Origin: Arthrobacter beigongshangensis
GTDB lineage: Bacteria; Bacillota; Bacilli; Bacillales_A; Planococcaceae
Direction of reading: 5' to 3'
DNA length: 64,000 nt
Assembly: GCF_016820585.1 (NCBI RefSeq)
Contig: NZ_JADHDX010000001.1
Coordinates: forward strand, 186,001-250,000
The notes beneath the pieces were generated by a model. That model searched no databases, was not told the DNA's origin, and worked only from the letters and a program-made list of their open reading frames with translations. Shown here in pieces: positions 8,641-60,056 of the stretch. A program made the position numbers and the translations under genes. Positions within the stretch are counted from its first letter, which is position 1, and each line of letters starts with the position of its first letter.

Positions 8641-8664
8641 GGGTAAATATTTGTCTTCGCGTGA

Positions 8665-8761
8665 GTGTCCAACTAAATGCGTAAAGTTTCCAACCAAACT
8701 TGAAAAGTGTGCAACCAATTCCTCGAAGTGTCCAACCAAACTCAAAAAGTGTGCAACAATC
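8665..8761 (+). repeat. 21-bp tandem repeat upstream of addB
   Basis: Four full units and a partial one of exactly 21 bases start at 8665, 8686, 8707, 8728 and 8749. Each begins GTGTCCAACCAA or GTGTGCAACCAA and ends in an A-rich tail. On the minus strand the period gives heptapeptides such as LVGHFEE and LVAHFSS, but I see no start signal or family to support a protein. The sequence differs from the ACAGTT arrays although the period is similar. Confidence 0.85.
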
Positions 8762-8885
8762 GTGCGCTCTATAAGCAACAAGAAAAGATTCCATCTCCAA
8801 ATCAGTACCTCCCCCTCCAAACTTTCTGTACAATAGAAGTATAGATTTGAATACATACGTCATTACGAAAAAAGGAGGGACTTTC

Positions 8886-18537: not shown

Positions 18538-18718
18538 TTTAACTTGAATCAGCAAATTCTTTTGTACTGAAAGCGAAGCGTCAGCTACAGAAGTCCCCCA
18601 TTTCTATAGGGGAGGAATTTAGTTCCATTTCCCTTTAGTGCTGGGGTGAATGCCAGAAAAGTACTTCAAACAGGGGGAGTTCAAACTCCCAACGCAATTA
18701 CGCCGAGGCGTAATTGAT
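18538..18718 (+). repeat. Hairpin-rich element copy 1 (with structured insert)
   Basis: It opens TTTAACTTGAATCAGC like the other copies, but the left arm then diverges. A structured insert follows: GTCCCCCA pairing with GGGGG, a GGGGTGAATGCCAGA core and an AGTTCAAACT loop. The copy ends with hairpin 3, CAATTACGC / GCGTAATTG, and ATTGAT. The middle hairpin of the family is missing. No coding capacity. Confidence 0.7.
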
Positions 18719-23682: not shown

Positions 23683-23772
23683 AGCGAACTCTGTTATGAT
23701 GAAGGTATTAACTTGATGTAGCAGGAAATCTAAATTTCTTGCGTAATTGATTAAACGGAAAGAGGGATAAAG

Positions 23773-27453: not shown

Positions 27454-28689
27454 ATGGGAAAAAGACGTGTAGTCATAACAGGAATCGGAGCAATTTCTCC
27501 GGTCGGAAATTCGGCTGAGGAGTCATGGCAGTCGGTTTTAGCAGGGAAATCTGGTGTTGGGCCATTAACTAGGCTCGATAGCGACCAGTTTCCAGTAAAA
27601 GTAGCAGCGGAAGTAAAGGATTTTGACATAGAGGAGTATATCCCACGGAAAGACGCACGTAAAATGGACCGTTTCACGCATTACGCGTTAGCAGCTTCTG
27701 TCATGGCGATGAAAGATGCAAACCTTGAATTAGAAGGGGAATTGGCACTTCGGACAGGTGTGTGGATTGGTTCTGGAATCGGGGGGATGGAAACGCATGA
27801 GCAGCAATTTAAGACATTCCTTGAAAAAGGGTATCGTCGTGTGAGTCCATTTTTCGTTCCGATGATGATTCCTGATATGGCATCAGGTCAAGTATCGATT
27901 CATCTTGGTGCAAAAGGCATTAACTCTTGTACGGTAACGGCTTGTGCATCTGGTACAAATTCGATTGGGGATGCATTTGAAGTGATTCGTCGCGGGGATG
28001 CAGATGTGATGATTACGGGCGGGGCTGAAGCGCCGATTACAACGATGTCGGTTGCTGGTTTTTGTGCCAATACGGCGTTGTCATTAAATCCAGATCCAGC
28101 AACAGCTTCACGTCCGTTCGATGCAGAACGGGATGGCTTTGTTATTGGTGAAGGAGCAGGTATCCTAATTCTTGAAGAGTATGAACATGCGATAGCGCGT
28201 GGTGCAAAAATTTACGCTGAGCTAGTTGGCTATGGTTCAACGGGGGATGCACATCATATTACGGCACCAGCTCCGGGTGGAGAAGGCGGCGCACGCGCAA
28301 TGGCTCAGGCGATTGAACAAAGCGGCATCGCTCCGGATCAAATCGACTACATTAATGCACATGGAACGAGCACGCCGTATAATGATTTATTCGAAACGAT
28401 GGCAGCTAAAACCGTTTTCGGTGAACATGCGTATAAGCTTGCGATGAGTTCAACGAAATCAATGACTGGTCATTTATTAGGTGCGGCAGGTGGATTGGAA
28501 GCTATTTTCACAGTAAAGGCTTTGCAGGAAGGTATTTTGCCACCGACAACTAATTTTGTCAATGCGGATCCTGAATGTGACCTTGATTATGTGACGGAGG
28601 GTGCGCGTAAGGCGGAGATCGAGTACGCAATGAGCAACTCACTTGGCTTCGGCGGACATAACGCTTCGCTTGTTTTTAAGAAAATTTAA
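27454..28689 (+). CDS. fabF: 3-oxoacyl-ACP synthase II (FabF)
   Basis: A 411-aa elongating condensing enzyme. C164 ([10 protein letters not shown]) is the nucleophile. Histidines near 303 (NAHGTSTP) and 340 ([11 protein letters not shown]) complete the Cys-His-His triad. The [10 protein letters not shown] end is typical. It extends acyl-ACP chains after FabH. GAAGGGAAG lies before ATG 27454. A terminator follows directly, then repeat array 2. Confidence 0.97.
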
Positions 28690-28696
28690 GATGTAT

Positions 28697-28730
28697 TGGG
28701 CGTCCCAGTTAAATGGGGCGTCTTTTTTGA
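28697..28730 (+). terminator. Terminator after fabF
   Basis: GGGCGTCCCA and TGGGGCGTCT pair as a 10-bp RNA stem with three G-U pairs around GTTAAA, followed by T residues. It lies just before the repeat array. Confidence 0.7.
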
Positions 28731-28754
28731 TTTGAGTGAGGAGTGGGGTGTTTG

Positions 28755-29770
28755 TCATTACAGTTCGACATTTTATCCTTACAGTTTGTGCGTTTACACT
28801 GACAGTTCTGCGTTTTACTCTTACAGTTTACCTGTTTACACTGACAGTTCCGATTTACTCTTACAGTTCGCTCGCCTACTCTAACAGTTCTCCGTTTTAC
28901 TCTTACAGTTTGCCCGTTTACACTGACAGTTCCCATTTACTCTTACAGTTCGCTCGCCTACTCTAACAGTTCTCCGTTTTACTCTTACAGTTTGCCCGTT
29001 TACACTGACAGTTCCGTTTTACTCTTACAGTTTGCCCGTTTACACTGACAGTTCCCATTTACTCTTACAGTTCGCTCGCCTACTCTAACAGTTCTCCGTT
29101 TTACTCTTACAGTTCGCCCGTTTACACTGACAGTTCCGTTTTACTCTTACAGTTTGCCCGTTTACACTGACAGTTCCCATTTACTCTTACAGTTCGCTCG
29201 CCTACTCTAACAGTTCTCCGTTTTACTCTTACAGTTCGCCCGTTTACACTGACAGTTCCGTTTTACTCTTACATTTTACCTGCCTACTCTAACAGTTCTC
29301 CGTTTTAATCTTACAGCTTGCACGTTTACACTGACAGTTCCGATTTCCTCTTACAGTTTGCCTGCCTACTCTAACAGTTCTGCGTTTTCCTCTTACAGTT
29401 TGTCCGTTTACTCTGACAGTTCCGTTTTACTCTTGCAGTTCGCCTGTTTACACTGACAGTTCTCCGTTTTACTCTTACAGTTTGCCTGTTTACACTGACA
29501 GTTCCGATTTCCTCTTGCAGTTCGCCTGTTTACACTGACAGTTCCCATTTACTCTTAAAGTTTGCCCGTTTACTCTGACAGTTCCGTTTTACTCTTACAG
29601 TTTACCCGTTTACACTGACAGTTCCGATTTACTCTTACAGTTTACCCGTTTACACTGACAGTTCCGTTTTACTCTTACAGTTTACCCGTTTACACTGACA
29701 GTTCCCATTTTTCCTCTTAAAGTTCGCCAACCTACACTGACAGTCCATCAATTCACCATAATAGTTCCAC
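28755..29770 (+). repeat. ACAGTT tandem array 2 (about 1 kb)
   Basis: About fifty degenerate units share the core ACAGTT, spaced mostly 19 or 21 bases apart. Two unit types alternate: TTTACTCTTACAGTT and TTTACACTGACAGTT. They are joined by short linkers such as TGCCCG, TCCG and TCGCTCGCC. Longer blocks containing CGCTCGCCTACTCTAACAGTT recur at least four times between about 28850 and 29230, so a higher-order repeat has been amplified. It fills the gap between fabF (plus) and the 29856 gene and trpS (minus). Frames through it code for low-complexity peptides and I do not call genes. Confidence 0.92.
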
Positions 29771-29782
29771 CAGTCCTTCAAT

Positions 29783-29813
29783 AATAAAAGCCCCCTTCGT
29801 CTAAAAGGGGGCC
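29783..29813 (-). terminator. Terminator-like hairpin beside array 2
   Basis: On the minus strand GGCCCCCTTTT pairs with AAGGGGGCTTTT and runs into TTTTATTATT. It could end transcripts coming from trpS that read through the plus-strand 29856 gene. Confidence 0.6.
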
Positions 29814-29855: not shown

Positions 29856-31392
<1,537 letters not shown>

Positions 31393-33843: not shown

Positions 33844-34018
33844 CGTTCAGCAGAAAACTTCCACTTCTATAAGTGGTGGGGTGAATGTAGTTTGGTCTAC
33901 TGTTCATCGGTTATCCTGAACGATGATAAAATCTCCGATGGATGTCACGGATTTTTAAGGGAGCTTTTCGAGCGTGTTCGAAAAAATCCGGACGCAATTA
34001 CGCTTTTGCGTAATTGAT
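33844..34018 (+). repeat. Hairpin-rich element copy 2 (divergent, with insert)
   Basis: A CGTTCAG / CTGAACG pair (33844-33850 and 33916-33922) encloses CCACTTCTATAAGTGG and a GGGGTGAATG core. The middle region retains GGATGTCACGGATTTTTAAG with a TTCGAGCGTGTTCGAA stem. Hairpin 3, CAATTACGC / GCGTAATTG, and ATTGAT end it. It lies between the oppA terminator and oppB. Confidence 0.75.
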
Positions 34019-36040: not shown

Positions 36041-37105
36041 ATGGAGAAAATTGTTGAAGTGAAAAACCTGGAGCTTTCCTTCCATACTTTTGCAGGTGAA
36101 GTGAAAGCAATCCAAGGTGTAAATTTTGAGGTGTTTAAAGGGGAAACGCTTGCCATTGTTGGTGAGTCGGGGTCAGGTAAATCGGTGACAACAAAATCGA
36201 TTATGCGACTTCTACCAAAATCGAGCACGGAGTATAAAAATGGTGAGATATTATTTGACGGAAAAGATCTGTTGAAAATATCTGAAAGAGATATGCAAAA
36301 AGTACGTGGAAAAGATATTTCGATGATTTTCCAAGATCCGATGACTTCACTTAATCCAACGATGCCAATTGGTAAACAGATTATGGAACCACTGTTTAAA
36401 CACCAAAAGCTTGGAAAAGGAGAAGCATGGAAAAAAGCAGTTGAATTGTTGGGTCTGGTCGGTATGCCACAACCAGAAATGCGTATGAAGCAATACCCTC
36501 ACCAATTCTCAGGTGGTCAACGTCAACGTATCGTTATCGCTGTTGCATTGGCGTGTAATCCGAAAATCCTTATTGCAGATGAGCCGACAACGGCACTCGA
36601 CGTGACGATTCAAGCCCAAATCCTTGAATTGATGAAGGATTTACAGAAAAAGATTGATACGTCGATTATCTTTATTACACATGACCTTGGTGTCGTGGCA
36701 AACGTTGCGGATCGTGTAGCCGTTATGTATGGTGGGCGGATTGTAGAAGTGGGGACGGTGGATGAAATCTTCTATAACCCACAACACCCGTATACTTGGG
36801 GACTGCTAAGCTCAATGCCTTCACTAGATGCAACAGAAGAGAAGTTATATGCGATACCTGGTACGCCTCCGGATTTATTGAATCCACCAAAAGGAGATGC
36901 CTTTGCGCTGCGTAGTGAATATGCGATGAAAATCGATATGGAACAAGTGCCGCCGTTATTTAAAGTAAGTGAAACGCATTATGCTGCAACATGGTTACTC
37001 CATCCGGATGCGCCGCAAGTGGAACCACCAGTAGCAGTTATCGAACGTATGAAGAGATTCCCGGGTAGCCGCTATTACGAAGGCAATGCAGGAGGTGTTC
37101 AGTAA
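36041..37105 (+). CDS. oppD: Oligopeptide ABC transporter ATPase OppD
   Basis: A 354-aa ABC ATPase. Walker A is G-E-S-G-S-G-K-S near residue 40. The signature F-S-G-G-Q-R-Q-R lies near 157 and Walker [11 protein letters not shown] near 177. The C-terminal oligopeptide-family extension continues to the end. The extension lacks the usual C-x5-C-x7-C iron-sulfur cysteine pattern. AAAGGAGGAAAG precedes ATG 36041. The stop overlaps the oppF start by one base. Confidence 0.95.
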
Positions 37106-38025
37106 TGGCTGAAAAATTACTTGAAATTAAAAACTTAAAGCAGTATTTTAATGTCGGTAAAAAGAATGAAGTACGTGCAGTTGATGACATTACATTTGAT
37201 ATTTATAAAGGTGAAACACTTGGGCTTGTAGGAGAATCAGGCTGTGGAAAATCAACAACAGGTCGAACTATTATCCGTTTGTATAATGCGACGGGTGGGG
37301 AAGTTATTTACGACGGTGTTGATGTCCATACAAAGAAATCGAGAACAGAGCTAAAGGCGTTTAATCGGAAAATGCAAATGATTTTCCAAGATCCCTATGC
37401 ATCATTGAACCCCCGCATGAAAGTGCTGGACATCATTGCAGAAGGGCTTGATATTCACGGCTTGGTGAAAAATCCAAAGGAGCGCACACAGCGTGTCCAT
37501 GAGCTTCTAGAAACGGTAGGATTGAACCGTGAGCACGCCAATCGTTATCCACATGAGTTTTCGGGCGGTCAACGCCAACGTCTTGGAATTGCACGTGCAT
37601 TAGCTGTTGAACCAGAATTCATCATTGCGGATGAGCCGATTTCCGCGTTAGATGTTTCCATTCAAGCGCAAGTCGTTAACTTGTTGAAAGAGCTCCAAGA
37701 GGAAAAAGGATTGACGTATTTATTCATCGCGCACGATTTGTCGATGGTCAAATATATCTCCGATCGAATCGGTGTGATGTATTACGGAAAACTTGTTGAG
37801 CTTGGTCCGGCTGAAACGTTATACACGGCACCGTTACATCCGTACACACAGTCCTTGCTATCCGCAATCCCGTTACCGGACCCTGACTACGAACGCAATC
37901 GGGTACGGAAAAGCTACGATCCAAAAGTGCATGAGTATAGTGAGGATGAAGAAGTGATCATGCGTGAAGTGACACCGGGACACTTTGTCCTTTGCTCACA
38001 ACGCGAATTTGAAACGTTTAACTAA
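37105..38025 (+). CDS. oppF: Oligopeptide ABC transporter ATPase OppF
   Basis: A 306-aa ABC ATPase with Walker A G-E-S-G-C-G-K-S near 39, the signature [10 protein letters not shown] near 152, Walker B and a C-terminal oligopeptide extension. It energises peptide uptake with OppD. The reading frame ends T-F-N-stop, where TTTAAC and the TAA belong to the start of element copy 3. The last residues and the stop codon therefore seem to be supplied by the repeat. Confidence 0.94.
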
Positions 38026-38211
38026 ATTCAGCAGAAATAATCCACTTCTATAAGTGATGGGATAATGCTAGATATACCTTCAAATTTAGTGGGGGTTCAA
38101 ACCCTAGCTGAATTAAGTTAAGCCTCCGGCGGATGTCACAAATTTTGAAGGGAGTTAATTGCGCAAGCGCAATTCAAAATTTGGACGCAATTACGCCGAG
38201 CCGTAATTGAT
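38017..38211 (+). repeat. Hairpin-rich element copy 3 (full, with insert)
   Basis: The most complete copy. TTTAACTAAATTCAGC opens it, and ATTCAGC (38026-38032) pairs with GCTGAAT (38107-38113) around the structured insert. AGCCTCCGGCGGATGT follows. Hairpin 2 has AAATTTTGAA / TTCAAAATTT arms and an inner AATTGCGCAAGCGCAATT. Hairpin 3, CAATTACGC / CGTAATTG, and ATTGAT close it. It overlaps the end of oppF. Confidence 0.85.
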
Positions 38212-38265: not shown

Positions 38266-38329
38266 GTTTTTCTCTATTATTCGTCTAGCTGCTTTGTTAG
38301 AATGAAAGAATAGGAAGGTCGGTGTGAAT

Positions 38330-39535
38330 ATGAAAATAGTCAAGTGGATGTCAGCCGTGCTTCTTACAGCTGGATTGGCAATTCCGATGGTGGCCACTGC
38401 TGAAGAGGATCAGCAGATGGAAGATTTTGCACAACGTACATATGGATTTGAAGTGATTGATGAGCAACTGATTGCTGCGTCTCCGCTATTCCGCTTTGAT
38501 TCTGGACTGACATTTACGTATCCGGATGCTGTTCGTGGTGTTTACGTAACAGGGCACTCAGCAGGGGGACAGCGCTTTGCGTATTTGACAAATTTACTCG
38601 ATACGACAGATCTGAATGCCATGGTTATAGATATTAAAGATGATTTTGGCAATATTACGTATAAACCTGCGGATGATTCTCCTTTAAAAGCATTGGACAT
38701 TGGTAAGCCCTACATAAAAGACCCGTATGCAATGTTAAAAACACTTGAAGAAAAAGAGATTTATCCGATTGCACGAATTGTTGTTTTTAAAGATAGTGTA
38801 CTTGCAGAAAAACGTCCTGAGCTGTCTTTCATGGATGGTAATGAAGTATGGAAAAATGGACGAGGTGAATCCTTCGTTAATCCATTTATGAAGGAAGTAT
38901 GGGATCATAACATCGCCATAGCAATTGAAGCAGCCAAAATGGGCTTCCAAGAAATTCAGTTCGACTATGTGCGCTTTCCAGAAGGCTTTGAAAAGCGTCA
39001 TGATGCTTTGAAGTATACATTTGAAACATATGAGGCATCTGAACTTGATGCTGTCCAAAGACGTGTGGAAGCCATTACAGACTTTGTTGCGTATGCTAGA
39101 GAGCAATTGCAACCATACGGAGTTAAAGTCTCTGTAGATATCTTCGGCTACGCAGCAACGCTCCCAGAGGCTCCAGGGATTGGTCAAAACTTCTTGAAGA
39201 TTTCCGGAAATGTGGATGTCATTTCCTCAATGATTTACCCGAGCCACTGGACATCCTATTTTGGTATTGCGAAACCGGATCTTGAGCCATACAAACTTGT
39301 GTCAGAATATGCTAAGATTGAAAATGCAAAATTAGCTGAACTCGAAAATCCGCCTGTATCGCGGCCGTGGATTCAAGACTTTAGCGCACCTTGGCTTGGA
39401 AAAGGTAATTATTTGAACTATGGTAAAGCAGAAGTTGAAGCACAGATTAAAGGGCTAAAGGATAACGGCATTGATGAGTATTTATTGTGGAACGCAGGAA
39501 ATCGCTATTCTGAAGGTGTTAATTATAAACCGTAA
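38330..39535 (+). CDS. Putative glycoside hydrolase (DUF4015), exported
   Basis: A 401-aa secreted protein with a signal peptide (K-I-V-K-W, hydrophobic core, V-A-T-A-E cut near residue 25). The mature part fits the DUF4015 TIM-barrel family: V-R-G-V-Y-V-T-G near residue 67, V-I-D-I-K-D-D-F-G near 100, E-I-Q-F-D-Y-V-R-F-P near 208 and S-S-M-I-Y-P-S-H-W near 300. Relatives are placed near GH13/GH18-like hydrolases, but no substrate is established. ATG 38330 follows GGAAGG by 11 bases; GTG 38324 is an alternative. Confidence 0.82.
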   Translation: MKIVKWMSAVLLTAGLAIPMVATAEEDQQMEDFAQRTYGFEVIDEQLIAASPLFRFDSGLTFTYPDAVRGVYVTGHSAGGQRFAYLTNLLDTTDLNAMVIDIKDDFGNITYKPADDSPLKALDIGKPYIKDPYAMLKTLEEKEIYPIARIVVFKDSVLAEKRPELSFMDGNEVWKNGRGESFVNPFMKEVWDHNIAIAIEAAKMGFQEIQFDYVRFPEGFEKRHDALKYTFETYEASELDAVQRRVEAITDFVAYAREQLQPYGVKVSVDIFGYAATLPEAPGIGQNFLKISGNVDVISSMIYPSHWTSYFGIAKPDLEPYKLVSEYAKIENAKLAELENPPVSRPWIQDFSAPWLGKGNYLNYGKAEVEAQIKGLKDNGIDEYLLWNAGNRYSEGVNYKP

Positions 39536-39536
39536 A

Positions 39537-39569
39537 AAGAAAGTCCAGAAAAATTCTGGACTTTTTTGA
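39537..39569 (+). terminator. Terminator after the DUF4015 gene
   Basis: GAAAGTCCAGAA pairs with TTCTGGACTTTTTT around a 3-nt loop. Confidence 0.88.
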
Positions 39570-39815
39570 ATATAGATGAAACCTTTGCCCATTGATAAAC
39601 GTATTATATAAGTGTAGGCATCCTAATTATTTTCAATTAGTACTCACCTAAATGAGAAAAGTTTTTATTTGACAAATCAGATGTTTAAATATTCAACTCA
39701 CTGGGTATAACAGTATAGAGCCGAAATAAGTACGAGATGAAATTGCGATAAAGCCACTAACTATTGTGGAATTGTGACAAACCTATATCGTTTAGCAAAT
39801 ATTTTTCAAAAAGTG

Positions 39816-39844
39816 TATTCATCAGTAATGAATATGTGTATAAT
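39816..39844 (+). promoter_or_regulatory. spx upstream promoter with palindrome
   Basis: TATAAT at 39839-39844 is a good -10, about 95 bases before spx; its -35 (TATTCA) is poor. TATTCAT (39816-39822) and ATGAATA (39828-39834) form a perfect 7-bp inverted repeat with 5-nt centre, filling the promoter spacer. It does not match the PerR box I know. The rest of 39570-39940 is AT-rich and otherwise featureless apart from a TTGACA at 39669-39674 with no paired -10. Confidence 0.45.
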
Positions 39845-39940
39845 AGGGTTTAGTAATAACCACATTAAAATTATTCTAATTTAATTGTACAAATATAATT
39901 TTTACCATTCAATCCTACTGAAAGGAAGTGTCAGCATATG

Positions 39941-40336
39941 ATGGTTACATTATTTACATCTCCAAGCTGTACATCATGTAGAAAAGCCAAAGCATGGTTG
40001 GAGGAACATGATATTCCGTATACAGAACGAAATATTTTTTCGGAACCTTTGAATATTGACGAGATAAAAGAAATTCTTCGCATGACAGAAGATGGAACAG
40101 ATGAGATTATTTCAACGCGTTCGAAGATTTTCCAAAAGCTTAATGTAGATGTAGAAAGCTTACCGCTACAACGTCTATATGAGTTAATCCAAGAACATCC
40201 TGGCTTATTGAGAAGACCAATCATTCTCGATGAAAAAAGATTACAGGTAGGATATAATGAAGATGAGATTCGTCGTTTCCTACCGAGAAAAGTTAGAGCC
40301 TATCAGCTGCTTGAAGCGCGGCGCATGGTAAACTAA
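39941..40336 (+). CDS. spx: Transcriptional regulator Spx
   Basis: A 131-aa ArsC-fold regulator. It binds the RNA polymerase alpha C-terminal domain and redirects transcription under disulfide stress. The redox switch C10-T-S-C13 is intact. The long stretch from N-I-F-S-E-P-L to R-R-F-L-P-R-K-V-R is nearly identical to B. subtilis Spx. ATG 39941 matches the family start; ATG 39938 adds one Met. AAAGGAAGTG lies upstream. The ClpXP adaptor SpxH and the ClpC adaptor MecA are also in this window. Confidence 0.97.
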
Positions 40337-40348
40337 TCCGACAATAGT

Positions 40349-40406
40349 GAAAGCTGATGGGAACTGACATTGAAAAATGCCGTAAACCCGTCAGCTTTTT
40401 TATTTT
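40349..40406 (+). terminator. Terminator after spx
   Basis: AAAGCTGATGGG pairs with CCCGTCAGCTTTTTT around a long loop of about 25 nt. Element copy 4 starts at its T run. Confidence 0.75.
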
Positions 40407-40407
40407 T

Positions 40408-40540
40408 ATTCAGCGGACGATTTAACACGAGCTGAATAAACATAAAGCCTCTGGCGAATGTTACAGATTTTAATCCCTCATTCCTGAAGGGCTCAAGCTC
40501 GATTCAAAATCTGGAAGCAATTTCGCCGGGCGTAAATGAT
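40408..40540 (+). repeat. Hairpin-rich element copy 4 (degenerate)
   Basis: ATTCAGC / GCTGAAT (40408-40414 and 40431-40437) enclose only 16 bases. A decayed AAAGCCTCTGGCGAATGTTACAG block follows, then a hairpin 2 with CTCAAGCTCGA, and a damaged hairpin 3 ending AAATGAT. This is the most mutated copy. Confidence 0.65.
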
Positions 40541-40778
40541 TTCTCTTGCTTTCCCGGAGGATGTTTTCTACAATGCTATTACTATCAAAATTATTCATCC
40601 TGAGGCAGAACCCTTTCAAATTTGGCAGGATGGTCATATATTAAGTATAAGCATTGCAGGATTTTTACGAACATTGATTGAAGGGGACGGTCAGATCCTG
40701 TTTAACTTGAATCAGCAAATTCTTTTGCTGATTCAAGTTAAGCCTCCGGCGGATGTTAGGGATTTTGAGGAGAGTTAA
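40536..40778 (+). other. Open frame between two elements, doubtful gene
   Basis: An 80-codon frame starts in the last bases of element copy 4 and ends inside copy 5. The 160 bases that belong to neither repeat encode a segment such as F-P-E-D-V-F-Y-N-A-I-T-I-K-I-I-H-P, which has normal protein composition. No ribosome site precedes the ATG, though GGAGG lies a little downstream. It may be a gene remnant trapped between two element insertions. I do not recognise a family. Confidence 0.25.
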
Positions 40779-40832
40779 TTGTGCTGTGCACAATTCAAAA
40801 TCCCAACGCAATTACGCAGAGGCGTAATTGAT
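40701..40832 (+). repeat. Hairpin-rich element copy 5 (short form)
   Basis: TTTAAC is followed by a perfect 16-bp hairpin 1, AACTTGAATCAGCAAA / TTTGCTGATTCAAGTT with loop TTCT (40704-40739). AGCCTCCGGCGGATGT, hairpin 2 (inner AATTGTGC / GCACAATT, outer GGGATTTTGA / TCAAAATCCC) and hairpin 3 ending ATTGAT follow. It ends about 20 bases before mecA and has no insert in hairpin 1. Confidence 0.88.
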
Positions 40833-46061: not shown

Positions 46062-46098
46062 TTAGGACCTTTCATTATTTTAGAAGGGTTCTTTTTAG
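46062..46098 (+). terminator. Terminator after the NERD gene
   Basis: AGGACCTTTC and GAAGGGTTCT pair as a 10-bp stem with two G-U pairs, followed by TTTTT. Confidence 0.72.
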
Positions 46099-46154
46099 TG
46101 TGGGAAAAAATAAAACTCCGTTATCGACATCGGGCAAAGGTGCTAGGTGAGAAA

Positions 46155-47000
46155 TCTGGCAGGCAATTAGAGAAAGACGATAGACTTTAAGAGAAAGTAG
46201 GTAAACTGTAAGAGAAAACTTGCAAGCTGTCAGAGTAACTTGATGAACTATCAGTGAACGAGCGAATTGTAAGAGAAAGTAGGCAAACTCTAAGAGAAAA
46301 CTTGCAAGCTGTCAGAGTAACTTGATGAACTATCAGTGAACGAGTGAATTGTAAGAGAAAACCGGCAAGCTGTCAGAGTAACTCGTTGAACTGTCAGTGA
46401 ACAAGCGAACTGTAAGAGAAAGCGGACAAACTGTAAGAGAAAACCGGCAAGCTGTCAGAGTAACTCGTTGAACTGTCAGTGAACGAGCGGATTGTAAGAG
46501 AAAGTAGACAAACTCTAAGAGAAAGTAGACAAACTCTAAGAGAAAACTTGCAAGCTGTCAGAGTAACTTGATGAACTATCAGTGAACGAGCGAATTGTAA
46601 GAGAAAGTAGGTAAACTGTAAGAGAAAACTTGCAAGCTGTCAGAGTAACTTGATGAACTATCAGTGAACGAGCGAATTGTAAGAGAAAGTAGGTAAACTG
46701 TAAGAGAAAACTAGTAAACTGTCAGAGTAACTTGTTGAACTATCAGTGAACGAGCGAATTGTAAGGGAAAGTAGACAAACTGTAAGAGAAAACTTGCAAG
46801 CTGTCAGAGTAACTCGTTGAACTGTCAGAGAACGAGCGAATTGTAAGAGAAAGTAGACAAACTGTAAGAGAAAGCGGACAAACTGTAAGAGAAAACCGGC
46901 AAGCTGTCAGAGTAACTCGTTGAACTGTCAGTGAACAAGCGAACTGTAAGAGAAAGCGGACAAACTGCAAGAGAAAACCGACAAACTGTCAGAGAAACCC
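46155..47000 (-). repeat. ACAGTT tandem array 3 (inverted orientation)
   Basis: About forty units of the same family as arrays 1 and 2 but on the opposite strand, seen here as AACTGTAAGAGAAA, GCTGTCAGAGTAA and AACTATCAGTGAACGAGCG. Blocks such as GTAACTTGATGAACTATCAG recur several times, showing higher-order amplification. The array lies between the converging NERD gene (plus) and spxH (minus). Internal frames are low complexity and rejected as genes. Confidence 0.92.
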
Positions 47001-47020
47001 CTCCCCTTGTCATCTCTACT

Positions 47021-47067
47021 AAAAAAACACTCCATCGACCGGTGAGATTCCGGTAAATGGAGTGTTC
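47021..47067 (-). terminator. Terminator of the spxH unit
   Basis: AACACTCCAT pairs with ATGGAGTGTT, with an inner CCGG/CCGG stem. On the minus strand it ends in a run of seven T residues. Confidence 0.85.
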
Positions 47068-47078
47068 ATATAAGTTCA

Positions 47079-47885
47079 TCAGTGTTGTTTTTTGCGCCAT
47101 AGGGTAGTGTCTTGGAATGACAGTCGTTCAACATGTTGTTGAAGCAGGCGTTTTTTGAGCTCGCGTTCGGCTGACTTTTCCGAAATGCTATAAATATCGG
47201 CAATTTCGTTTGTGGTAAGAGTATCGAAGCGACGGAACAAATCTTCTAGTGGTGGAGGAATATCGGGCATGATCGTCATGCCGATTAATTCCTCTAAAAT
47301 TTGTTCGTACACATCATAACTGTACAAGCCGCTTACTTTCAATCCTTCATCTTCAATATTTCCATTAAAGAATACGAATGTAGCGGGTTGATCGACTTCC
47401 ATTTCTTTGGCCATATACAAATCAACCTGTAAGGAGCGTAAGACGTTCTTAGAAGAAAAATCTAGGATAAATTCATCTACGTCTAGCTCCAATTTTTCGG
47501 CAATTTCAACGAGTACTGAAAAAGAGGAGACATTTCGAGATTTTAAAAATGAGTACTCAAACAATTTGGACAGGAAGCGCATTCCTGCACGCTTACCTTG
47601 GAATTCGGCTGCTTTTACGGCGATACTTGGGAAAGTAGGATGTACTTTGCTACAAGCTAGATCGTCTACTTGTTTTTTTGTGCATTGTAAATTCATCGTT
47701 GGTAATGAAGTACGCAAAGCAACTCGCAGTGTGAAGTAACGATCATACTCTAGTTGCAATTTCCGTAGAACAGGCTGAAGGGACCAGCTATCCGCGCACA
47801 AAGGATCAATGAAAACATATAATTCGATGGGTCTTGTACATGTAGAAGGAATCACCGAATTTTCCATTAATGTTTGTCGATTCAC
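47079..47885 (-). CDS. spxH: ClpXP adaptor SpxH (YjbH)
   Basis: A 268-aa DsbA-like protein of the YjbH family, which binds Spx and speeds its ClpXP degradation. It has the thioredoxin-like start E-L-Y-V-F-I-D-P-L-C-A-D-S-W. Here the metal or thiol motif is C-A-D-S-W rather than CxxC. A C-terminal helix-turn-helix-like stretch (E-I-A-D-I-Y-S-I-S-E-K-S-A-E-R-E-L-K) follows. The GTG start overlaps the globin stop (GTGA). GGGGAGG lies before it. Its client gene spx is about 7 kb away. Confidence 0.92.
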   Translation of the reverse strand: MNRQTLMENSVIPSTCTRPIELYVFIDPLCADSWSLQPVLRKLQLEYDRYFTLRVALRTSLPTMNLQCTKKQVDDLACSKVHPTFPSIAVKAAEFQGKRAGMRFLSKLFEYSFLKSRNVSSFSVLVEIAEKLELDVDEFILDFSSKNVLRSLQVDLYMAKEMEVDQPATFVFFNGNIEDEGLKVSGLYSYDVYEQILEELIGMTIMPDIPPPLEDLFRRFDTLTTNEIADIYSISEKSAERELKKRLLQQHVERLSFQDTTLWRKKQH

Positions 47886-54821: not shown

Positions 54822-54955
54822 ATCAATTACGCTCTGGCGTAATTACGTCCAAATTTTGAATTGTGCTTGCACAATTGAACTCCCTTCAAAATTTGTGACA
54901 TCCACCGGAGGCTTGATTTACATCAGCAGGGGCTCCTGCTGATGTAAATCAATTA
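54822..54955 (-). repeat. Hairpin-rich element copy 6 (minus strand)
   Basis: Read on the minus strand it opens TAATTGATTTACATCAGCAGG, whose hairpin 1 arm pairs with CCTGCTGATGTAAATC. AGCCTCCGGTGGATGT, hairpin 2 with inner AATTGTGCAAGCACAATT, and hairpin 3 (GTAATTACGCC then GCGTAATTG) ending ATTGAT complete it. It begins at the cotZ stop codon. Confidence 0.85.
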
Positions 54956-58430: not shown

Positions 58431-58739
58431 ATGGGTTATCTATTGCCAATTCAACCAATTCAATCTCAGCAATATGCAAATCGGATGAATATGGAATCGT
58501 ATAATTTTGCACATATCAATCGGGTGAACAAAGTTAAATTCAATTTCAATTTTTCCGAGGATTCGCATGGTGCATTTCAACAGGAACGGGATAACAAGGA
58601 AGAGGAGGTAAAGGATATTGCTCATGTTGCCTCACCATCTTTAGTAGCTAAAGGGTTTATTTACCCAAATCCTGCAAATCTATCACCCGCGATTTCACAA
58701 GCGGTTGGTAAAGGCCTTTCGGTTAATGCATATGTTTAA
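58431..58739 (+). CDS. Hypothetical protein, unrecognised
   Basis: A 102-aa soluble protein with a Gln-rich start (L-P-I-Q-P-I-Q-S-Q-Q-Y) and a charged middle (N-K-E-E-E-V-K-D). The tail runs G-F-I-Y-P-N-P-A-N-L-S-P-A. I know no family. AGAGAGGGG suits ATG 58431; GTG 58422 is less likely. A TATACT at 58385-58390 may be its -10. Position among spore genes suggests a sporulation role but that is context only. Its stop codon is the TAA of element copy 7, so the C-terminus may be altered. Confidence 0.65.
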   Translation: MGYLLPIQPIQSQQYANRMNMESYNFAHINRVNKVKFNFNFSEDSHGAFQQERDNKEEEVKDIAHVASPSLVAKGFIYPNPANLSPAISQAVGKGLSVNAYV

Positions 58740-58845
58740 CTTGATTCAAGTTAAGCCTCCGGCGGATGTTAGGGATTTTGAGGGGAGTTAATTGTGCTGT
58801 GCACAATTCAAAATCCTAACGCAATCACGCCGGAGCGCGATTGAT
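58735..58845 (+). repeat. Hairpin-rich element copy 7 (short form)
   Basis: TTTAACTTG / CAAGTT is a collapsed hairpin 1. AGCCTCCGGCGGATGT, hairpin 2 (GGATTTTGA / TCAAAATCC with AATTGTGC / GCACAATT) and hairpin 3 (CAATCACGC / GCGCGATTG) ending ATTGAT follow. It overlaps the stop codon of the 58431 gene. Hairpin 3 carries paired changes (TTA to TCA and TAA to CGA) that partly keep the stem. Confidence 0.85.
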
Positions 58846-59939: not shown

Positions 59940-60056
59940 TTAACTAAATTCAGCCAAAGTCCCCACGACTAAGGAGAAAGTTCCATTTCTTCTTAGTGAT
60001 GGGATGAATGCTAGACATGCCTTCAAGCTTAGTGGGGTTCAAGCCCCAGCTGAATA
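59940..60056 (+). repeat. Hairpin-rich element copy 8 (insert module only)
   Basis: TTAACTAAATTCAGC opens it and GCTGAAT (60049-60055) closes hairpin 1. The insert has GTCCCCAC pairing with GTGGGG, a perfect ACTAAG-GAAA / TTTC-CTTAGT stem, the GATGGGATGAATGCTAGACA core, and GGGG-TTCAA-GCCCC. Hairpins 2 and 3 of the other copies are absent. The remaining 60057-60114 holds nothing I can name. Confidence 0.75.

Follow-up and report, generated by a model that had tools for sequence, protein, structure and literature searches.

A hairpin-rich repeat family in Arthrobacter beigongshangensis, probably PATEs related to IS200/IS605 transposons

The window analysed here is a stretch of 64,000 nucleotides from Arthrobacter beigongshangensis (Planococcaceae in GTDB; contig NZ_JADHDX010000001.1, positions 186,001 to 250,000). 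It contains an open reading frame at 37105-38025 whose last codon and stop are provided by a hairpin-rich element at 38017, one of a family of repeats found along the window. In the related genome G014, a different copy at the same place would prolong this frame into the element. A previous, sequence-only reading had listed eight such sites as sharing up to three hairpins, a common block and the same ends. Related hairpin-rich sequence is present at all eight, and the features of the window are as follows.

38017..38211, plus strand: full copy, with the flanking target TTTAA at 38017-38021 and the element at 38022-38211; it consists of H1 (loop containing module A), a TTAA segment, the block, H2, and H3 ending in ATTGAT
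40701..40832, plus strand: short copy of subfamily I, with TTTAA at 40701-40705, the element at 40706-40832 and a short H1 loop
58735..58845, plus strand: short copy, with TTTAA at 58735-58739 and the element at 58740-58845
54822..54952, minus strand: copy with the left flank TTGA (54952-54949), matched by an internal TCAA
33845..34018, plus strand: older copy (site 33844), module A present, left end lost
40402..40540, plus strand: decayed copy at the site listed as 40408
18538..18718, plus strand: chimaeric copy reduced to the left arm of H1, module A and H3, block and H2 lost
59940..60055, plus strand: module A only
about 23708-23750, plus strand: ninth site, a mostly deleted remnant keeping only the two ends, recognised by eye
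31074..31139, plus strand: Bacillaceae-1 RNA (RF01690) lying outside the elements, 47.2 bits against a gathering score of 35

The family is modular, its parts following one another from left to right as flanking TTTAA, H1, a 4-nt segment, the block, H2 and H3. The H1 loop is short in 40701 and 58735 and elsewhere contains module A, at least about 75 nt long, while the 4-nt segment between H1 and the block reads, for example, TTAA or TAAA. The block GCCTCCGGCGGATGT includes a small GCC-TCC-GGC hairpin, and H3, of the form CAATTACGCC...GGCGTAATTG-AT, terminates in ATTGAT. Elements measure about 105-260 nt; subterminal hairpins lie at either end, and terminal inverted repeats are lacking. Extra hairpin modules are housed in the H1 and H2 loops; they differ between orthologous copies and travel with the element. 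The sharing of parts is less uniform than first listed, with the block AGCCTCCGG missing in 18538 and 59940 and 40408 being decayed. The sequence AGCCTCCGGCGGATGT is exact in 38017, 40701 and 58735, near-exact in 33844, 40408 and 54822, and lacking in 18538 and 59940. The left end TTTAA^C is common to 18538, 38017, 40701 and 58735, but not to 54822 (TTGA), 33844 (left end lost) or 40408 (degenerate), and the right end is missing from 59940.

A covariance model spanning the block, H2 and H3, of the kind that the sequence-only reading had proposed as a check, was built from 31 copies, seven of them window copies or overlapping ones, and with search filters off it matches seven of the eight sites in the window (E 7.5e-21 to 0.0008); 59940 is unmatched because only its left module is present. 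The density of one copy per 8 kb holds within the window but is local, since a 464-kb part of this contig contains 24 covariance-model matches, about one per 19 kb. The location between genes is borne out on 464 and 480 kb from two genomes, that of the window (G000) and a relative (G056), where three of the 44 copies fall largely within open reading frames of at least 150 aa, as against 82% of random positions. Repeats of other kinds occur in the same window. Long intergenic arrays of units of about 20-21 bp around ACAGTT (TTACAGTTyrCC-like) lie at 1-500, 28689-29790 and 46098-47095, the third on the opposite strand, and are present too in syntenic parts of G014; a short array whose 21-bp units are AGTGTCCAACCAAA-like occupies 8664-8768.

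Recent mobility of a MITE-like kind, as first proposed, is supported by orthologous sites that are empty, re-used or inverted in relatives, and by copies in the source genome up to 98% identical to 40701. G056 and G014 are both syntenic with the window, G056 being 89% identical across 38320-40360. At 38017, no copy occurs in G056 or G043, and G014 carries a copy of another subfamily behind the same GTTTAA. Site 58735 is empty in G014 and holds a longer, reversed copy in G056; its joined flanks read TTTAATTAAA, and each copy (G000, G056) follows TTTAA on its own strand to within one base. The copy at 40701 is common to G056, where its counterpart has an additional 69-nt module in the H2 loop, and is lacking in G014 (empty site, off by 1 nt), and the copy at 33844 is common to G056 and absent from G043 and G014. 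The copy at 54822 is absent from G056, where the site is altered, and G014 has a longer relative at the same place; 59940 is without an aligned counterpart in G056 or G014, the G056 site being altered. At 40408, the G056 and G014 copies include Bacillaceae-1-like modules. Over the longer stretches, 464 kb of G000 and 480 kb of G056 differ by many insertions which are whole copies or internal modules. The element family is mobile. Between copies 40408 and 40701, the segment 40506-40783 may be a conserved regulatory region, as suggested by its 96% identity to G056 compared with about 89% around it.

Copy number is high in the source genome, with at least 100 matches among 105 scored candidates under covariance model R1 (block, H2 and H3), and apart from 40701 itself the twelve copies of this genome most similar to it are 91-98% identical over the aligned part. 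G056 and G014 have at least 118 and at least 132 matches respectively, 150 candidates having been scored in each, and the remaining 38 genomes of the genus have 0 to 31. At E <= 0.001, 30 of the 41 genus genomes, G000 counted, contain at least one match to R1. An exact-pattern scan of named genomes, with at least 101 matching stretches, has among its matches listed Sporosarcina, Lysinibacillus, Psychrobacillus, Metasolibacillus, Solibacillus, Rummeliibacillus, Siminovitchia, Bacillus norwichensis and B. ndiopicus. No copies were found with a DNA query in 16 genomes from other families of the class, and the 132-nt copy had no match in phage and plasmid collections.

The manner of insertion was read by eye from 25 junctions picked from the comparison of G000 (464 kb) and G056 (480 kb), numbered by position in the compared stretches. 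Six are clean and without duplication (G056 3534, 25244, 242377 and 331486; G000 224724 and 261825), five are resolved within 3 nt (G000 38021, 158831 and 309135; G056 164234 and 286766), one is duplication-like (G056 335309, 8 nt) and thirteen could not be resolved, including one that has 14 additional nt and another whose empty site retains part of the left arm (9 nt). Three of the comparisons with G014, for which the eight window sites were viewed, agree: 58735 is clean, 40701 is off by 1 nt, and the G014 copy at 38017 is clean against the empty site of G056. On the filled side, seven of the eight clean cases have TTTAA or TTTAT, and 25244 has GTTAT; on the empty side, the exact motif is present in four (3534, 224724, 242377 and 38017) and the others are one to three letters off. 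The element thus usually lies directly 3' of TTTA[A/T], and target duplication is absent at cleanly resolved junctions. A TTAA target duplication had been hinted at by 38017 and 58735, and was discarded in view of the clean duplication-free sites. The same sites make a classical MITE, moved by cut-and-paste through a DDE transposase with TTAA duplication, extremely improbable despite TTAA being found in both flanks at 38017 and a few other copies, as does the lack of terminal inverted repeats at the two ends. A bias towards the lagging strand was also considered, 105 of the 148 listed G056 and G014 copies running with the replication fork (p 3.6e-7), and was set aside, unused, because gene orientation confounds it: where 82-83% of open reading frames are on the plus strand, 29 of 44 copies are too, and 26 of the 31 copies between two plus-strand frames are themselves plus.

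The target is related to a segment inside the element. The internal 4-nt segment lies immediately 5' of the small GCC-TCC-GGC hairpin and is fully complementary to the 4-nt flank on the left in 76 of 111 copies, compared with 29.5 on average and never more than 45 over 10000 shuffles; related copies are not independent in this count. Some of the loci scored came from a pattern requiring the segment to end in AA, a bias which the shuffles keep. The 111 remain from 118 copies in which the H1 right arm directly before the block was matched to the left arm, after exclusion of seven with a 5-6-nt interval. The commonest flank/segment pairs are TTTA/TAAA (40) and TTAA/TTAA (26), and rare matched pairs include TTCA/TGAA, GTAA/TTAC, TTGA/TCAA, TTAT/ATAA, CTGA/TCAG and TTAG/CTAA. 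Part of the signal could come from repair extending H1 into the flank. Published work on IS608 describes a guide, 5' of the left hairpin, with which the target pairs; when the guide is altered, so is the target (PMC5934647). The order of target, spacer, guide and hairpin is the same in the element, whose internal segment (TTAA, TAAA or variants) may likewise act as a left guide choosing the target.

Folding and covariation indicate that the hairpins are maintained. As single-stranded DNA, 38017-38211 folds at -36.3 kcal/mol, compared with -18.3 in shuffles (z -5.6; 0 of 200), and 14 of 32 stem pairs show changes on both sides (shuffled mean 6.5), with 97.8% of cells paired. Stem changes that keep pairing, which the sequence-only reading took as a hint of RNA or single-strand structure, are therefore real, for example in H3 of 58735, but do not single out RNA; the covariation is strong, yet demonstrates only maintained pairing, and suits the hairpins of single-stranded DNA transposition at least as well. 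Those compensatory changes, together with the intergenic position and a nested Rfam RNA, would also be expected of a structured RNA under selection, either an sRNA or a 3'-UTR element, whose spread is incidental. This explanation appears quite unlikely, considering that orthologous copies come and go, that their modules differ, that H1 varies with the flanking DNA, and that the entire element is without a match to an Rfam family, the nested module alone matching. The loss of whole hairpins, the change of H1 with the flank and the insertion polymorphism fit DNA hairpins.

Kinship has been sought among the IS605-type elements of the genus. Several left ends of tnpB elements, with or without tnpA, were seen by eye to approximate TTTA[AT]C...CAGAAGxCTCCCACTTC...AAGTGGGAGATGAATGTCGG. 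A module-A profile of 65 copies, searched against 63 loci bearing tnpA or tnpB, matches the left ends of three separate elements (L164/L069, E 0.0025; L183, E 0.004; L179, in the source genome, E 0.0046); its other matches are weaker (E 0.47-0.77), apart from stronger ones in L181, which are element copies, and the reversed loci gave no match up to E 1. These matches suggest a modest resemblance of the element's left half to the IS605/IS1341 left ends of the genus. In Sulfolobus islandicus, the insertion site of IS605 is given as TTTAA in part of one report (PMC11043419). No H3-like right end was seen by eye beside the tnpA and tnpB genes of the genus, and this is the main gap in the case for kinship. 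Among 269 core matches searched for an autonomous version, none had a later H3 and a transposon-like open reading frame with no intervening core, three candidates having been inspected.

A matching transposase, which the sequence-only reading had advised looking for, was not found intact in G000, G014 or G056. The single Y1 match of G000 is a broken RAYT (L031:1060-1800), with CCGGTrCCAGTCAyTCA-type repeats on both sides, and the Y1 matches of G056 and G014 are all broken or partial. TnpA profiles run against six-frame translations of most loci returned the RAYT remnant of G000 only. G000 is a draft assembly (3.65 Mb, 49 contigs), so that a repeated insertion sequence could be missing from it; G056 is one contig, 95% complete. 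Elsewhere among the 41 genus genomes, nine have a complete, high-scoring Y1, and many have a longer RAYT-like match. Across the 41 genomes, in correlations that ignore kinship and use element counts that are lower bounds in three genomes, element number follows OrfB_IS605 (rho 0.51, p 6.5e-4) and RF01690 (rho 0.75); the correlations with Y1 (rho 0.27, p 0.09) and RVT_1 (rho 0.09) are not significant.

These data bear on two further explanations. Mobilisation of the palindromes by a RAYT (TnpA-REP) would agree with the remnant in G000 and with RAYT-like genes being common across the genus, and is very unlikely given that the remnant is broken and adjoined by other repeats and that several genomes with RAYT-like genes, such as G008, G022 and G024, have no element match. 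The RAYT was rejected as mobiliser on these grounds, and the label REP-like, offered at first, is not supported in its strict sense. The strong structure and constant 3' end would also suit a retroelement, with RNA copies inserted by a reverse transcriptase. Such an origin is hardly to be expected, as RVT_1, present in G014, is unmatched in G000 and G056 and, as noted, does not correlate with the element.

The link with RF01690 is considerable. At gathering score, Rfam finds only a T-box and one Bacillaceae-1 RNA in the whole window; the latter (31074..31139) adjoins the T-box leader (31168-31379, minus strand), and a second, decayed copy possibly precedes it (from 31040). Two G056 copies contain an RF01690 module above the gathering score of 35, with 81.6 bits for the one within the counterpart of 40408 and 43.9 bits for the one within the reversed copy at 58735. 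The family is itself multicopy; it is matched in 34 of the 41 genomes, with 28 matches in G000, 68 in G056 and 94 of 94 scored in G009. Model R2, built from 19 RF01690 copies, finds 23 in the two stretches of G000 and G056; fifteen have, on the same strand, the block within 160 nt or H3 at most 160 nt downstream, compared with 34 of 2000 random positions. Of the other eight, L140 is nested as judged by eye and seven lie elsewhere. Nested copies occupy the H2 loop or the interval separating H1 from the block, and can in turn contain another module, AAGTGCCTTAATTTCTGC.... At least in these stretches, the so-called sRNA is thus for the most part a mobile hairpin in nested position, and Bacillaceae-1 RNA is likely a travelling DNA module, because many element copies contain it. 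In the parts of the literature available to us, RF01690 appears in a table of candidate RNAs (PMC2864571), its reverse strand has been proposed as CsrA-binding, with the strand uncertain (PMC4333381), and it is listed among abundant sRNAs (PMC9029176); no text terming it mobile was found in such portions of the open-licence literature. Bacillaceae-1 RNA copies also lie beside apparent very small open reading frames in other species (L301:1501-1567, L312:1501-1567), and a GGAyGTAGTTCAATCC hairpin recurs within modules (L116:14114-14207; L125:1245 onwards), possibly as a further small nested repeat.

Taken as a whole, the family is best explained as PATEs, transposase-less relatives of IS200/IS605 that would be transposed in single-stranded form by an HUH (Y1) TnpA acting in trans, a reading to which a probability of about 0.72 is given. 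Confidence is limited to this level because the right-end match is incomplete and the transposase was not found. The TnpA would be supplied from elsewhere, H3 would be the right-end hairpin with the cleavage site, and a TnpA now lost or unseen would have performed the mobilisation. A bolder and unlikely version has the PATEs moved by a non-Y1 enzyme which the 4-nt DNA guide would serve, with Bacillaceae-1 RNA a mobile hairpin spreading by nesting and not an sRNA gene. G000, G014 and G056 have about 100 or more copies each, no intact Y1 was found in them, and the insertions are younger than the species split. Were the non-Y1 version true, any change of guide would give a copy a new target. Under the PATE reading, a bacterial family whose natural copies vary segment and target together could make guide-directed single-strand insertion readable from genomes, and a possible explanation is obtained for the orphan Rfam family RF01690. 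The case also advises caution, in that strong covariation in intergenic repeats does not imply RNA function. Searched by title and the start of abstracts, the open-licence literature yielded no paper on this element family or on bacterial PATEs.

Among known systems, the closest likeness is to the PATEs of Haloquadratum walsbyi. According to the sections consulted of their description (PMC3119063), these occur in high copy without terminal inverted repeats, have near-terminal palindromes related to IS605-type transposons, use a short target oligonucleotide without target duplication, contain nested smaller repeats, and moved although nearly all tnpA genes are broken. Insofar as those sections describe them, the element shares the lack of terminal inverted repeats and of a transposase gene, the near-terminal palindromes, the short target left unduplicated at resolved sites, the high copy number and the nested repeats, and has likewise moved though an intact tnpA was not found; it would be a second case, after Haloquadratum, of recent PATE movement in genomes where intact TnpA is not seen. 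It differs in being bacterial, in showing IS605 resemblance for the left end only, in having a known Rfam RNA as its nested module, and in that the match of segment and flank has been tested copy by copy. With IS200/IS605 transposons, as represented by the portions of the IS608 work cited above, the element would share a target on the left, a left hairpin with a 5' guide, a right-end hairpin and target choice by pairing, and it differs in having no transposase gene, in its plain Watson-Crick pairing and in a right end unmatched to known insertion sequences. Regarding Bacillaceae-1 RNA, the nested module belongs to RF01690 and constitutes part of the element only. REP/RAYT sequences are, like the element, intergenic, high in copy number and hairpin-bearing. 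Pneumococcal BOX repeats are also intergenic, of high copy number, built of hairpins and modular. The element is set apart from both by its target rule and its IS605-like left end, and from the former also in that RAYT does not track it.
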